Assembly: GCF_002549775.1 (NCBI RefSeq)
Contig: NZ_NMTR01000021.1
Span: 434,001 to 498,000 of the forward strand
DNA length: 64,000 nt
Source of the DNA: Faecalibacterium langellae
Lineage (GTDB): Bacteria > Bacillota > Clostridia > Oscillospirales > Ruminococcaceae
Direction of reading: 5' to 3'
Numbering within the stretch: the first letter of the stretch is position 1; each line of letters opens with the position of its first letter. A model generated the notes under the pieces. That model was not told the origin of the DNA. It saw only the letters and a program-made list of their open reading frames with translations, and ran no database searches. Both the position numbers and the translations under genes were made by a program. Of the stretch, positions 45,177-54,186 are shown piece by piece.

Positions 45177-45449
45177 TTGGACGTTCAAAAAGCATTCGGG
45201 AAGAAGGTCCGGCAGTTACGGACCGAAAAGGGCTTAAGTCAAGAGAAGTTTGCATTGTTGATTGGCATGGATAGAACCTATCTTGCATCGGTAGAAGCTG
45301 GCAAAAGAAATATCTCGATCAGAAATATTCAAAAAATTGCAGAGGGACTAGAGGCGCCTCTGAGCAAACTGTTTGACGATTTGGAAGGAGAGTATGCAGA
45401 TGGCTCAAAAGGACTTTCGAACCTATCATCGTCGGGAGACAACACGTAA
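45177..45449 (+). CDS. XRE-type controller protein of a restriction-modification system
   Basis: A 90-residue protein whose first 70 residues form a helix-turn-helix (FGKKVRQLRTEKGLSQEKFALLIGMDRTYLASVEAGKRNISIRNIQKIAEGL). This is the pattern of restriction controller (C) proteins. The start is TTG with GGAGAGGAG upstream. Its end overlaps the endonuclease gene by 50 bp in another frame, so both are made from one transcript. It likely delays endonuclease expression until the methyltransferase has protected the DNA. Confidence 0.8.
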   Translation: MDVQKAFGKKVRQLRTEKGLSQEKFALLIGMDRTYLASVEAGKRNISIRNIQKIAEGLEAPLSKLFDDLEGEYADGSKGLSNLSSSGDNT

Positions 45450-46887
45450 AAGCGGGTATCATGCCTGCAATGAAACAACCGGTGGAGAATGCCGCATCCT
45501 CCACGCAGAACGCTATGTTGCCAAAGGCGATACCACAACATTTATATTTTCTCGCCCAGCGCTTGATGTTGTTGAACTTTTTGAAAAAGAAATTTCAATG
45601 ATTGCTTTTGGAGGATATGTTTGTTCTTCTGAAAAAGCAGTGATTTCGCTGGAAATAAGCTATAACTATGAGGGGGTCCGGTATACTTTTAGTGGTAAGG
45701 AGAAGTGGATACTGGAACCTGATAGTTGGGCCAGCATTGGCATTCATGCAGAGCAACTGATCAACAAGGCTTCGCAGTTTCAGGGCATTGCTGTCAGAAT
45801 GACAATATCAAGTAAACAAGGCAGCATTTTTGATTTTACCGCTTTTGATTTAGACGTGGTATCGAAAGAGGAATTCCAGGATACATCTTGTGCAGTGAGT
45901 TTTTACCAGAAAACAAATATGCATGTGCCCTATCTATATTATCTGCGTTCTGATCTGCCAATTGGCCGTTATCTTATCTCTAGGCAAGAATTTATCGAGG
46001 GAAGACGCGTTGTTGAAAAAAGCTGCAACCGTTGTGGGCGATACTTGCCGATCAATATGGATAATGAACTGAAGACGTTGAGCTTTTCGCTGCATTGCAA
46101 AAAACGTGCCCCCTGTGTGCACTCGACTTTTAGAGCGTATACAATACAAAACTATGCGGATTTAAAGGCGGCGGATCTCGAAGGCCTGAAAATTGAAGAT
46201 GGAAAAGTTGTGTCTTATTATGGGCATCAGCTTGAATGCAAAGCTTGCAAAAAATTCTTTGTGAATACGCCTTTGAACCCACAGCGCAACGCGCAGCAAT
46301 TTAAAGAAGATGGATTGAGACGAAGGGCAATTGAAGTATTGATCAACACACTTCTGGAGAAAAATCTCATTCACTTTGAATTTGAACGTCGTACCAAAAA
46401 GGAGTTTTCACGCTATATTTGGGAAAAATTTGACAGGCGCTGCTTCAAGTGCGGCCCGGATTCAAATCCGATCGCATTAGAGGAGATGGCATTGGACCAT
46501 ACTATGCCGCTGGCGTACCTTTATCGTTTGGATGAAACGGCGACCTGCTTGTGCAGCAGCCATAATTCCCAAAAGAGCGACCACTTCCCGGTAGACTATT
46601 ATAGTGAAGAAGAACTTGTCAGACTGAGCGAAATTACTGGATTGTCCTTAGAGCAGCTTCAGAAAAAAGAGGTCAATCCGAAAGTTCTTGGTTTGCTCGT
46701 TGAAAATGTTGTGTGGTTCTATGATGAATTTTTAATGCAGCCGGAGTACCAAAAAGTAAGAGATGGCGTAAGGACCGCTGACAAAATCAATGATTCGTTA
46801 AAACGCATCATTTCTGGGAAAGTTGACCTTGCAGAAAAATATCGTGAAAAAACAGGGCACTATCCTACATCTGTAACGATCCGATAA
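45400..46887 (+). CDS. HNH restriction endonuclease (predicted)
   Basis: A 495-residue protein. Three Cys-pair sites are visible (CNRCGRYLP, CKACKKFF, CFKCG), suggesting zinc binding. Near residues 350-400 the HNH-like core reads DRRCFKCG...EEMALDHTMPLAYL, then CLCSSHNSQKSDHFP, with the DH and the final N/H in proper order. The N-terminal half (ISLEISYNYEGVRYTF and others) is beta-rich and probably recognises DNA. It is in a controller-endonuclease operon convergent with the methyltransferase gene. ATG 45400 has AAGGAG nine bases upstream; 45373 and 45394 are other possible starts. Cleavage specificity cannot be inferred. Confidence 0.75.
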   Translation: MAQKDFRTYHRRETTRKSGYHACNETTGGECRILHAERYVAKGDTTTFIFSRPALDVVELFEKEISMIAFGGYVCSSEKAVISLEISYNYEGVRYTFSGKEKWILEPDSWASIGIHAEQLINKASQFQGIAVRMTISSKQGSIFDFTAFDLDVVSKEEFQDTSCAVSFYQKTNMHVPYLYYLRSDLPIGRYLISRQEFIEGRRVVEKSCNRCGRYLPINMDNELKTLSFSLHCKKRAPCVHSTFRAYTIQNYADLKAADLEGLKIEDGKVVSYYGHQLECKACKKFFVNTPLNPQRNAQQFKEDGLRRRAIEVLINTLLEKNLIHFEFERRTKKEFSRYIWEKFDRRCFKCGPDSNPIALEEMALDHTMPLAYLYRLDETATCLCSSHNSQKSDHFPVDYYSEEELVRLSEITGLSLEQLQKKEVNPKVLGLLVENVVWFYDEFLMQPEYQKVRDGVRTADKINDSLKRIISGKVDLAEKYREKTGHYPTSVTIR

Positions 46888-46891
46888 TTAT

Positions 46892-46925
46892 AAAACGGGA
46901 CTGGAAATATTCCAGTCCCGTTTTT
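46892..46925. terminator. Bidirectional terminator between endonuclease and methyltransferase
   Basis: AAAACGGGACTGGA pairs with TCCAGTCCCGTTTT around a 5-nt loop, with T-runs on both strands. Confidence 0.9.
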
Positions 46926-46929
46926 GTGG

Positions 46930-49290
46930 TCACTTTTTCATCAAAAACAAGTATTGATGCTCAATTGTTTTTCCCTTGTCTTTGATCCCGTACTTTTCGA
47001 TTTTTTGAACATTTTCAGTACCGCGATATACTTCAACAAAATATGGCGATGCTCGTTTTGAGAGTTCTTCTGCCATATCGATCGTTTCTGTTTTCCCGAG
47101 GTGGAGAATGACTTTTCCATTAGGGTTCAGAATGCTGGCACACATCTTGAAAAAAGGAACGTATACATCAAAATTTCTGCGCTGTTTTTGGTCAAGGAAG
47201 ATGTTGTCTGCTTCCCTGTAATCTGCTTCTTCCCATCCGCACAGCCAAAGGCGCATCCAATTTTGCATATAAAAGCGCATGGAATCCGCAAATGGGGGAG
47301 AACAGATGATGGCGTCGGCAGAGATGTTGTGAGTTCCCAGCTCTTTGTAATCACCACATAGCGCTTTTCCGGGTTTATAATGATCAAAGTTCCCCTTTTG
47401 AAATGAAGCGTTCAACTTTTCTTTTATGTGCTCGACGACATTCTTATACACAAACTCACCAGTAGGAGCATACGGAGTAAGCGGATGCGAATTTCGAGAG
47501 AGGGCATAGGGTCTGTTGCCATGAAGTATATGCAGCAAGCAGGAAAAAACCATTGCCTCTGCAGAAGACAGCGTTTTGATCCGGGGCGCAAAATAGTTTC
47601 GTGCACAAAGGATCTCTCGGAAAGTGTCTTGGTGAAAATAGTCCGGCAGCTTTCCATTAAAGCCAAAGCTTTTGTATTTTTCAAGCTGTGCCTCAATGGT
47701 GGAGCTTTGTTTTTCCCGTGTGATATAAGAATGTAATGCATTCAAAACCTGAAGGCAGTTCGTTTCATCGGGCTTTTCAAGTTTTGCTTTTGACACACAA
47801 AAAGCAAGCTCACTTAAATCATTTCCAATTCCAATCCTGTTTTGAAGGCACGCTTCCAAAGGAATTGTACCAACACCGCATAATGGATCCACAACCGTAT
47901 CTCCGGGCTCAGTGAACTGCTCCACCAGAAAATGAGCGATTGCAGGTTTCATCTTTCCATGATAGGAACACAGGGAATGCCAGGGATGCCCCCAATTTCG
48001 TCCCGAATATGGCTCGGATTTGTACGGTAGAGTACGCATGAAATTCTGCGCTTCACTGCGAAAAACTTCGTATGGAGAGGTCTTTTTATGAAGGCGGAAT
48101 TTTAATAACCGCTGCGAAAGGACCATCCCATTTTTTGACCGACGTTCCCTTAAAATGACGTCGTCATATAATTGAAATCCATATGATTCGCAAATTTTGA
48201 CGAGTATTTCGTGCGTGGGAATATGGACACCAGCAAACTGGGAATCTCCGATATCCATAATGAAATATCCACTGTCTTTCATTGCATGGGACAGGCGTTC
48301 AATTACGGCTTTCATATCATGAAAATAACCTGCAACCATGATTGGAATACGCTTATCGTAGGCAACTGGGATCAGTTTTTCGATGTATGGACGTATGATT
48401 TCTGGAACTTCAAAAGGAGCCATGCGGGAGGATACATTATTGATTCCTGCAATGATCCCCTTTGAGTGAAACATCGGCAAATCTTTTTCCGTGACAATGT
48501 GATCTGTGAGCTTCAACTCCAGTTTTGTGTTTCTGATATAGTTTGTTCCATTCAAATAGGGCGGAGATGTAATGACGCAATCAATTTTGTTCTCCATTAC
48601 AATATCTCTGGCATCTTCTGCCAACCGAATGGTTTCGACGCGGGGATGACAAGCGTCATTTTCAATGTCTTCAATAGCTGTTTTGATTTTTGTGATAAAA
48701 TTTGCAAAAATATTTTTATCATCCGGCTTTTTTTCGTTCGCTTTGGCAAAACGCAGATCACCTTGCCGAATCATTTTGGAAGCTCTGACGGTAACAGAAG
48801 CCAAAAGAATCAAGGCAATGCTTCTTGTATCAGGATCGGTGATTTTTTCGACTTTCATTTTTAAAGTCTGCAACTGTACAAGAACTTCTAGGTCAAAATA
48901 TTTTTCGAAACCATCCCATGTGGCGGTGTCAATGCAAAGCTGATCGGGGATGCTTTCCAGTTCTTTTAAAAATTCCTTTAGATATCGGCTGCCGGTCCGA
49001 CTGTCACGCAGGCGTTTCACCGAATTGATTTTTGCTTCGATGACCTGCTGCATAAAAGGATTGGTTTCGCAGTAGAGTGATTTGATTCCATGCGAGGAGG
49101 CAACCAACGGAGTAGTTCCTGAACCGCCAAAAGGATCAAGAATCGTATGAATATTTTCTGGCCCGATTTCCATTACGATATCTTCGACTAAACGGGAAGA
49201 ATAGCCCTCCAGATAAGGATACCATCTATGGATGGGCTCTGCTTTATTTAAAACGAAGGTCGCGGCAGCCCTGGAATGATTGTTTCCCAT
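46930..49290 (-). CDS. Two-domain DNA methyltransferase (SPPY type)
   Basis: A 786-residue protein with two complete methyltransferase modules. Module 1: AdoMet motif DPFGGSGTT (residues 52-60) and catalytic TSPPY (241-245). Module 2: DPLCGVGTI (468-476) and CSPPF (664-667 for SPPF). The SPPY-type motif points to amino-methylation (N4-cytosine or N6-adenine), and the motif I to IV order is that of the beta-like class. Two modules suggest that both strands of an asymmetric site are modified, as in type IIS systems. It faces the endonuclease gene. Base composition is AT-rich like the rest of the island. Confidence 0.85.
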   Translation of the reverse strand: MGNNHSRAAATFVLNKAEPIHRWYPYLEGYSSRLVEDIVMEIGPENIHTILDPFGGSGTTPLVASSHGIKSLYCETNPFMQQVIEAKINSVKRLRDSRTGSRYLKEFLKELESIPDQLCIDTATWDGFEKYFDLEVLVQLQTLKMKVEKITDPDTRSIALILLASVTVRASKMIRQGDLRFAKANEKKPDDKNIFANFITKIKTAIEDIENDACHPRVETIRLAEDARDIVMENKIDCVITSPPYLNGTNYIRNTKLELKLTDHIVTEKDLPMFHSKGIIAGINNVSSRMAPFEVPEIIRPYIEKLIPVAYDKRIPIMVAGYFHDMKAVIERLSHAMKDSGYFIMDIGDSQFAGVHIPTHEILVKICESYGFQLYDDVILRERRSKNGMVLSQRLLKFRLHKKTSPYEVFRSEAQNFMRTLPYKSEPYSGRNWGHPWHSLCSYHGKMKPAIAHFLVEQFTEPGDTVVDPLCGVGTIPLEACLQNRIGIGNDLSELAFCVSKAKLEKPDETNCLQVLNALHSYITREKQSSTIEAQLEKYKSFGFNGKLPDYFHQDTFREILCARNYFAPRIKTLSSAEAMVFSCLLHILHGNRPYALSRNSHPLTPYAPTGEFVYKNVVEHIKEKLNASFQKGNFDHYKPGKALCGDYKELGTHNISADAIICSPPFADSMRFYMQNWMRLWLCGWEEADYREADNIFLDQKQRRNFDVYVPFFKMCASILNPNGKVILHLGKTETIDMAEELSKRASPYFVEVYRGTENVQKIEKYGIKDKGKTIEHQYLFLMKK

Positions 49291-53193: not shown

Positions 53194-53208
53194 ACGATCC
53201 GGACACAA

Positions 53209-53246
53209 CAAAACGCCTCTGCGGAGTGATTCCACAGAGGCGTTTT
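53209..53246. terminator. Bidirectional terminator between galK and the MAM-like operon
   Basis: AAAACGCCTCTG pairs with CAGAGGCGTTTT, T-run follows. Confidence 0.9.
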
Positions 53247-53266
53247 TCATTGTAGGGGGAAGGGGG

Positions 53267-53599
53267 TCAGACGGTCGGGGTCTGGTCCTGCTCCTCTTTG
53301 TACCGTGCCGAGAGGAACTGCATCAGATCGGTGCCTTCCTGCGAGAAGCTGAACCGGTTCGAGAAGCGGTCGTAGATGTCCATGGCAAATCCGAAGCCGG
53401 TCTTGACCACGTTGAACAGGAGCATGGGCACAAAGGTGAACGAGAAGGAAATGAGCCCGCCCTCCCAGAACAGATCGTCCAGATGGAGACTGCCAAAGAA
53501 CGCATCCAGTGCGTCGCGCAGCGGGCCGCCGCCGGAAACCTGCATCTGCTCATCCTCAGAAAGCGATGCATAGGAATGCGGCATTTGAAGATTTTTCAT
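53267..53599 (-). CDS. MAM-like double-glycine-leader protein (second gene)
   Basis: A 110-residue protein. Its first 24 residues (YASLSEDEQMQVSGG at residues 10-24) form a double-glycine leader like those removed by C39-peptidase ABC exporters. The mature part is about 86 residues with a hydrophobic segment (LISFSFTFVPMLLFNVVKTGFGFAM) and a charged tail. AAAGGAG lies upstream of ATG 53599, 44 bp after the stop of the first gene. It is probably an exported peptide, bacteriocin-like or MAM-like; no exporter gene is nearby. Confidence 0.7.
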   Translation of the reverse strand: MKNLQMPHSYASLSEDEQMQVSGGGPLRDALDAFFGSLHLDDLFWEGGLISFSFTFVPMLLFNVVKTGFGFAMDIYDRFSNRFSFSQEGTDLMQFLSARYKEEQDQTPTV

Positions 53600-53643
53600 A
53601 GAGGTTCGACTCCTTTCCGGGTTATTCAAAGAGATCCAAAGGC

Positions 53644-54099
53644 TCAGGCCGCAGCAGCGGTCTCAGCGCCGCTGAAGTCCGGCATGGGGTTGAAGATATC
53701 GTCGTAGATGTTCTTCAGGCTGTTGTAGATGCTGTAAGCCTTGAGACCGGCCGAGATGCCGGCCAGGCCCACGACGCCGATGGCTGCGGCCTTGCTTGCG
53801 GGGGTGGCCAGCTTGCCCCAGGTGTGGTAGATCGTGCCGGCGAGAGAAAGGCCGTTCGTCTTGCCGGACTGGTACAGGTTGCTGATGTAGTTGAAGGAAG
53901 CATTGGTCAGCAGATAGCCGAAGTTGACGACCACGTTCATGCAGAACTGGGCGGCCTGCTCGGTGTCCAGGGTGAGATAGGTATTGCCGATCCGCGCAAG
54001 AATGATCTCCTCGCCGCCGCCAAGGTAGGTCATTTCATCTTCGGGAATAACGGCATAGTTCGCCGGCAGAAGCATCGTGTTCTCGTAGGGATGATCCAT
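53644..54099 (-). CDS. MAM-like double-glycine-leader protein (first gene)
   Basis: A 151-residue protein. The leader LLPANYAVIPEDEMTYLGG (residues 10-28) closely resembles the start I recall for the F. prausnitzii microbial anti-inflammatory molecule (MPANYSVIAENEMTYVNGG). The mature part of about 123 residues is hydrophobic, with an alanine/glycine-rich stretch (ASKAAAIGVVGLAGISAG) and an acidic C-terminus. It is probably processed after Gly28 by a C39-type ABC exporter. AAAGGAG precedes ATG 54099. The assignment rests on leader and size; the mature part differs from MAM as I remember it. Confidence 0.75.
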   Translation of the reverse strand: MDHPYENTMLLPANYAVIPEDEMTYLGGGEEIILARIGNTYLTLDTEQAAQFCMNVVVNFGYLLTNASFNYISNLYQSGKTNGLSLAGTIYHTWGKLATPASKAAAIGVVGLAGISAGLKAYSIYNSLKNIYDDIFNPMPDFSGAETAAAA

Positions 54100-54157
54100 G
54101 ATGGAAAAACTCCTTTCGCTCGCAGAGCCCGCATAAAGCGGACAATATACTATCTGA

Positions 54158-54186
54158 ATTGTAGCATAATTGTACAAAAATAACAA
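54158..54186 (-). promoter_or_regulatory. Promoter of the MAM-like operon
   Basis: Minus-strand TTGTTA (54181-54186), 17-bp spacer and TACAAT (54158-54163). Confidence 0.7.

Follow-up and report, generated by a model that had tools for sequence, protein, structure and literature searches.

The window, i.e., the whole 64,000-nucleotide stretch of DNA that was analysed, carried two minus-strand open reading frames (ORFs), W1 (151 aa) and W2 (110 aa), with a spacing of 44 nt. The features of this gene pair were as follows:

54158..54186, minus strand: promoter-like site, TTGTTA-17 nt-TACAAT with a TG extended -10; counterpart upstream in 26/26 loci (the window's own counted)
54110..54116, minus strand: ribosome-binding site AAAGGAG of W1, read from the sequence and found in 16 listed orthologous upstream regions
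53644..54099, minus strand: W1 gene, 151 aa, a probable distant MAM relative by family profile
54013..54099, minus strand: W1 leader, 29 aa, ending TYLGGG, with E at -8, M at -7, L at -4 and I at -12; cleavage site predicted
53647..54012, minus strand: W1 predicted mature protein, 122 aa, 12.9 kDa, with three main helices in a low-confidence model
53610..53616, minus strand: ribosome-binding site AAAGGAG of W2, read from the sequence
53267..53599, minus strand: W2 gene, 110 aa, apparently unrelated to MAM beyond the leader
53528..53599, minus strand: W2 leader, 24 aa, ending VSGG, with E at -8, Q at -7, V at -4 and L at -12; cleavage site predicted
53270..53527, minus strand: W2 predicted mature protein, 86 aa, 9.9 kDa; an S-x-S-F-T-F-V-P-x-L-L-F-like core is conserved
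53210..53246, unstranded: terminator-like hairpin separating W2 from the convergent galactokinase-like gene

The ORF list contained longer versions of W1 (180 aa) and W2 (120 aa) that began at TTG; the ATG codons at 54099 (W1) and 53599 (W2), each preceded by AAAGGAG, were the likelier starts. The earlier note had claimed co-transcription from a recognisable promoter. A promoter-like site was indeed identifiable, and the layout makes a single W1-W2 transcription unit likely. The hairpin downstream of W2 was strong (-31.2 kcal/mol for 53200-53266; z -8.5), and 0/200 shuffles folded as well. Neighboring the pair were a 4-alpha-glucanotransferase gene (malQ) and the galactokinase-like gene, 283 and 73 nt away, respectively; galactokinase models matched the latter only under their curated cut-offs. 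Both proteins contained hydrophobic segments, with best 19-residue hydropathy windows of 1.51 and 1.76.

Elsewhere in the window, positions 45177-49290 contained an HTH gene resembling those of control proteins (PADLOC E 1e-23), a 504-aa ORF without a domain match and, on the opposite strand from these two, a 786-aa type II methyltransferase. This stretch is likely a type II restriction-modification unit.

The shared leader pattern reported in the earlier note, Y-A-x-(I/L)-x-E-D-E-...-G-G, was present in both ORFs, reading Y-A-V-I-P-E-D-E...G-G in W1 and Y-A-S-L-S-E-D-E...G-G in W2. A leader HMM was built from 99 leaders of other cargo families, with the W1 and W2 families excluded. Among the 1333 stop-to-stop frames of the window this HMM ranked W1 first (E 7e-10) and W2 second (E 0.047), with the next frame at 7.5. 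Because the two ORFs took the top two ranks in a search trained without their own families, the likeness of their leaders exceeds chance. An HMM of the 34 MAM leaders alone also placed W1 first (E 1.5e-9), bearing out the statement that W1 starts like MAM, while W2, again second, was not significant (E 2.7) among the window frames. Searches of 23 leaders against domain libraries gave weak scattered matches (best E 0.019).

Peptidase-containing ABC transporters (PCATs) place requirements on particular leader positions. The peptidase domain of PCAT1 is described as binding the leader through -12, -7 and -4 and cutting at the GG, and the hydrophobic residue at -7 as mattering in PCAT1 (PMC6959990). 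The W1 leader agreed with the PCAT substrate consensus throughout (hydrophobic residues at -12, -7 and -4, E at -8 and GG at -2/-1), and the W2 leader agreed with it except at -7, where the Gln is a possible weakness.

In the window genome the leader profile recovered six genes at E < 1e-13 (MAM, W1, W2, two tandem genes at another locus and one gene of 83 aa), with the next match above 1. The cargo sample comprised 149 non-identical leader proteins from 60 chosen regions and the 26 loci of the pair. Pro was found at -18 in 149/149 and Glu at -8 in 148/149 of the sampled leaders, counts that are partly circular because the sample was chosen by the leader profile; for the pair, the HMM trained without both families avoids this circularity. 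The GG in 149/149 leaders was by construction, as 3/152 hits of the leader profile, whose aligned part had no GG, were removed beforehand. Two of these were W2 orthologues (L067 and L071) in which the GG lay slightly further on and which were retained in the W2 alignment, so that the sample holds 24 of the 26 W2 sequences; the third was L124 of genome G021. This MAM-type frame, with GG absent from its aligned leader, lay near another leader match (G021:C16:12060) and is possibly a frameshifted or decaying copy.

BLAST linkage of the mature parts revealed five families, namely: tandem type (53 members), MAM (34), W1 (26), W2 (24) and small type (12), these numbers being sample sizes. Mature lengths of the sampled cargos ranged from 49 to 135 aa. 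The pair's proteins fell into separate families, as expected from the different mature parts described earlier. For seven of the eight leader proteins from outside the genus, the comparison having omitted one of two similar L191 proteins, the mature parts had no link to the five families (best E 0.041). The published MAM motif MMMPANx(8,11)VxGG was found in 25/149 sampled proteins, all of them in the MAM family of 34, and in neither W1 nor W2. In G003, a genome of the same genus whose orthologues of the pair lie at L059:1030-1473 and 1501-1827, MAM (L111) starts with the 42 residues of a published F. duncaniae peptide, which points to the gut genus Faecalibacterium as the probable source of the window.

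Two further units with such leaders were observed. Many genomes of the genus contained a unit of two or three tandem leader genes with mature parts of ~82-107 aa (L014:1489-1836, L147; L148-L169). A third unit consisted of a single small leader gene with a mature part of ~49-54 aa (L013:1348-1596, L135-L146), well conserved in 12 sampled genomes. A one-pattern scan of the window genome (9/12 matches, -10 TANRMT), which is blind to promoters with other -10 forms, did not reveal a promoter shared by the leader genes: W1 was preceded by the pattern and the tandem unit by a version lacking the TG, and the pattern was missing upstream of MAM, the small gene and the PCAT. Within the text available from the MAM leader and PCAT literature (PMC8836110, PMC12184118), no description of the W1/W2 pair or of the further cargo families was found.

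One C39 peptidase-ABC transporter (PCAT) was found in the window genome, at 336798-339122 of the same contig. The pair was located at contig positions 487270-488099, 148 kb from this gene, and MAM at 409439; the earlier note was right that no exporter is adjacent. The PCAT carried Gln8, Cys14 and His92, which are named as C39 active-site residues in the MAM paper (PMC12184118). Next to it were genes for an HlyD-type protein, a Big_2 Ig-like protein and a product of 149 aa, which agrees with the set of PCAT, HlyD and Ig-domain genes known from other strains (PMC8836110).

Within the genus, 26 of 31 genomes had a PCAT (Peptidase_C39), and each of these contained 4-9 leader matches at E <= 0.5 among the matches listed. 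The five genomes without a PCAT had no leader match (G019, G020 and G026), one (G018; E 0.42) or four (G025); G020 contained a different, weaker C39 match and was scored as PCAT-less. Pair and PCAT were both present in 25 genomes, both absent in four and discordant in one genome each way (Fisher p 8e-4), and in the 22 genomes of at least 90% completeness these numbers were 20, two and zero each way (p 0.004), although the 31 genomes are related and the counts are not independent. The discordant genomes were G025 (77% complete), where the pair was present and a PCAT was not found, and G024 (79%), where a PCAT was present and the pair was not found.

Across 297 genomes of the family, PCAT comparison used matches at E <= 1e-100 and scored three candidates per genome. 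The leader was found (E <= 0.001) in 8/297 genomes, and a PCAT of at least 61% identity was found in exactly those eight, which are likewise related and do not count as independent cases. In 17 further genomes the exporter matches (E <= 1e-100) were 31-43% identical, and no leader match was found. The eight genomes represented four genera, four genomes being from the genus of the window. In the four from outside the genus, leader genes were no more than 4.3 kb away from the PCAT; an HlyD gene and a gene of the 149-aa type were also near it; the Ig-like gene was seen in three, the fourth stretch having ended earlier.

Other observations concerned the surroundings of the PCAT. In 5/5 genomes examined (L003:8131-8580, L190-L193), a companion gene of 149-161 aa close to the PCAT immediately preceded the HlyD gene. 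The other copies were 39-47% identical to that of the window genome and the DUF5085 match was weak; the product may act in cargo export as a chaperone or a regulator. In G028 (L086) the PCAT open frame was only 203 aa long, though leader genes were present, reflecting either a sequencing error or a real loss. In G086 (L193:621-4295) ORFs that by eye resembled a response regulator, a sensor and AgrB were located near the PCAT and a leader gene.

The pair itself was widespread in the genus. W2 was matched in 26/31 genomes, and the W1 gene was directly upstream in all 26 loci; with W1 as query, matches were found in 27/31 genomes, some of them to other leader proteins. Within flanks of up to 1.5 kb, malQ stood beside the pair in 20/26 loci and a galactokinase-like gene in 22/26, at an identity of at least 77% in 12 and of 42-46% in 10. 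In 28 comparisons between close relatives the dN/dS of the pair was 0.11-0.35, so W1 and W2 behave as real genes. Divergence was fast, with W1 being 21-49% identical to its orthologues. Neither protein had a match in Pfam or NCBIfam at E <= 1, and members of the family alignments gave only weak scattered matches (W1 against NCBIfam, W2 against Pfam). A contig scan that starts from short exact matches, and that may omit genomes near the window's and is hence of little weight here, found no relatives of W1.

Weak similarity to MAM beyond the leader was found for one of the two families. HHalign aligned the mature parts of the MAM and W1 families over 65 columns with an E of 1.1e-4 (3e-5 in the reverse order). 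The score of 30.8 was reached by 0/300 block-shuffled controls, which scored at most 18.4. Without the clade of the window the match persisted (E 2.6e-4), and with the four sequences of that clade alone it was lost (E 0.057). The W1 of the window and the MAM of the same genome aligned at E 0.035, with 28% identity over 61 residues that were partly leader. Among the ten profile pairs of cargo families MAM/W1 alone stood out. The match between W1 and the small family (E 0.0032, 21 columns) was not accepted as homology, and the remaining pairs were at E >= 0.018; between the mature parts of MAM and W2 no similarity was found by profile (E 0.44). With moderate confidence, the profiles identify the W1 family as a distant relative of MAM; W2, judged in the same way, is a separate family unrelated to MAM beyond its leader. 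Against the refuting condition named in the earlier note, a likeness to MAM-like families confined to the leader, the two proteins divide: the W1 family has weak further similarity and the W2 family none.

Structure models were of low confidence (mean pLDDT 65 for W1 and 67 for W2). The W1 model had helices at 46-81, 86-96 and 100-136 (36, 11 and 37 residues), and a published MAM model has helices at 37-70, 74-86 and 100-119 (PMC12184118). A fold search of the PDB with both models gave no match at E <= 0.001.

The best-supported reading, with a probability of roughly 0.65, is that W1 and W2 are cargos of the cell's one PCAT and probably envelope proteins, and not a bacteriocin. Expressed from one likely transcription unit, they would be exported by the single PCAT, whose gene lies elsewhere beside those for an HlyD adaptor and two other proteins. 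Recognition of the shared leader by the C39 domain and cleavage after the GG would then release a 122-residue helical W1 product and an 86-residue W2 product with a conserved hydrophobic core. The transmembrane part of PCAT1 is described as having no cargo-specific site (PMC6959990), which would let a single exporter handle cargos of several families.

Once outside, mature W1 and W2 would most likely be surface or envelope proteins acting together, possibly as partners of a MAM layer. Such a role is favored because the pair is near-universal in the genus and is kept together under purifying selection, because no immunity or modification genes stand beside it, and because MAM, whose leader is of this type, has been reported as the principal protein of the envelope (PMC12184118). 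The probable envelope location of the pair is thus argued by analogy from the published location of MAM, which together with its lattice rests partly on modelling (PMC12184118), and from the conservation of the pair. Co-transcription and joint action of W1 and W2, like their cleavage, export and location, are what we infer from these patterns. A bolder and rather doubtful version of this reading makes one bacteriocin-type exporter (PCAT, HlyD, Ig-like protein and 149-aa companion) a general route for small surface proteins of at least five cargo families including MAM, with the pair as an obligate two-subunit part of the surface layer.

A host-directed immune modulator that damps NF-kB in the manner of MAM, on the surface or secreted, is compatible with the envelope reading and is by itself unlikely. 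The leaders are of the MAM type and the W1 family is distantly related to MAM in its mature part, but the W2 family has no such similarity. A 2025 paper reportedly concerns purified recombinant MAM. The NF-kB assay expressed MAM cDNA inside HEK cells, and a secreted route is not covered by it (PMC8836110).

In a two-peptide bacteriocin, as the earlier note had suggested among other roles, mature W1 and W2 would jointly permeabilise competitors. Tandem genes, GG leaders, a C39 exporter and hydrophobic segments in both proteins agree with this, and export of bacteriocins is the commonest PCAT function (PMC8836110). The occurrence of the pair in 26/31 genomes argues against it, as do the lengths of the mature parts and the gaps of 283 and 73 nt to the neighbors, into which an immunity or transporter gene does not fit. 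Two-peptide bacteriocins typically have mature parts shorter than 122 and 86 aa, and in class IIb an immunity gene and a dedicated transporter lie beside the structural genes. Neither was adjacent to the pair in the window. The bacteriocin suggestion is therefore disfavored, and we regard it as quite improbable.

Known GG pheromones are, to our knowledge, far shorter than mature W1 and W2, and both window neighbors of the pair are metabolic genes, which makes it very improbable that PCAT frees the two as secreted signalling peptides. Some PCATs do release pheromones (PMC8836110), and the leader gene of G086 lies near the ORFs that by eye resemble a two-component system. Equally hard to credit are vestigial leaders on proteins that remain in the cell: the exporter gene is far from the pair and the W2 leader has Gln at -7, but Pro at -18 and Glu at -8 are nearly invariant in the sample (a partly circular count) and leaders co-occur with PCAT.

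Exported envelope proteins thus remain the preferred reading of W1 and W2, and the leader set points to MAM as one among a number of small-protein families leaving by a single exporter. If so, several co-exported proteins may account for effects credited to MAM or to the bacterial surface, and knockout of the PCAT would remove all cargos together. If the set is real, the published MAM motif finds only the part of it counted above (25/149 sampled). The W1/W2 pair offers a clear second case beside MAM that is testable.

The pair can be compared with three known systems. Like class IIb two-peptide bacteriocins it consists of two tandem GG-leader genes; it differs from them in having no adjacent room for an immunity gene, long mature parts and a distribution across nearly the whole genus. 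With MAM it shares the GG leader type with E at -8, the genome and presumably the same single PCAT, and the W1 family adds the distant similarity of the mature part and a three-helix layout. It differs from MAM in its locus, in the absence of the published motif from both proteins and in the extent of the similarity, which is 28% over 61 residues for W1 and limited to the leader for W2. The substrates of PCAT1, such as CtA, are described as having a hydrophobic residue at -12, E at -8 and GG at -2/-1, and an N-terminal leader followed by a cargo (PMC6959990), all of which the pair resembles. Here, in contrast, several cargo families per genome, encoded by dispersed genes and with mature parts of 49-135 aa, accompany one C39 exporter.
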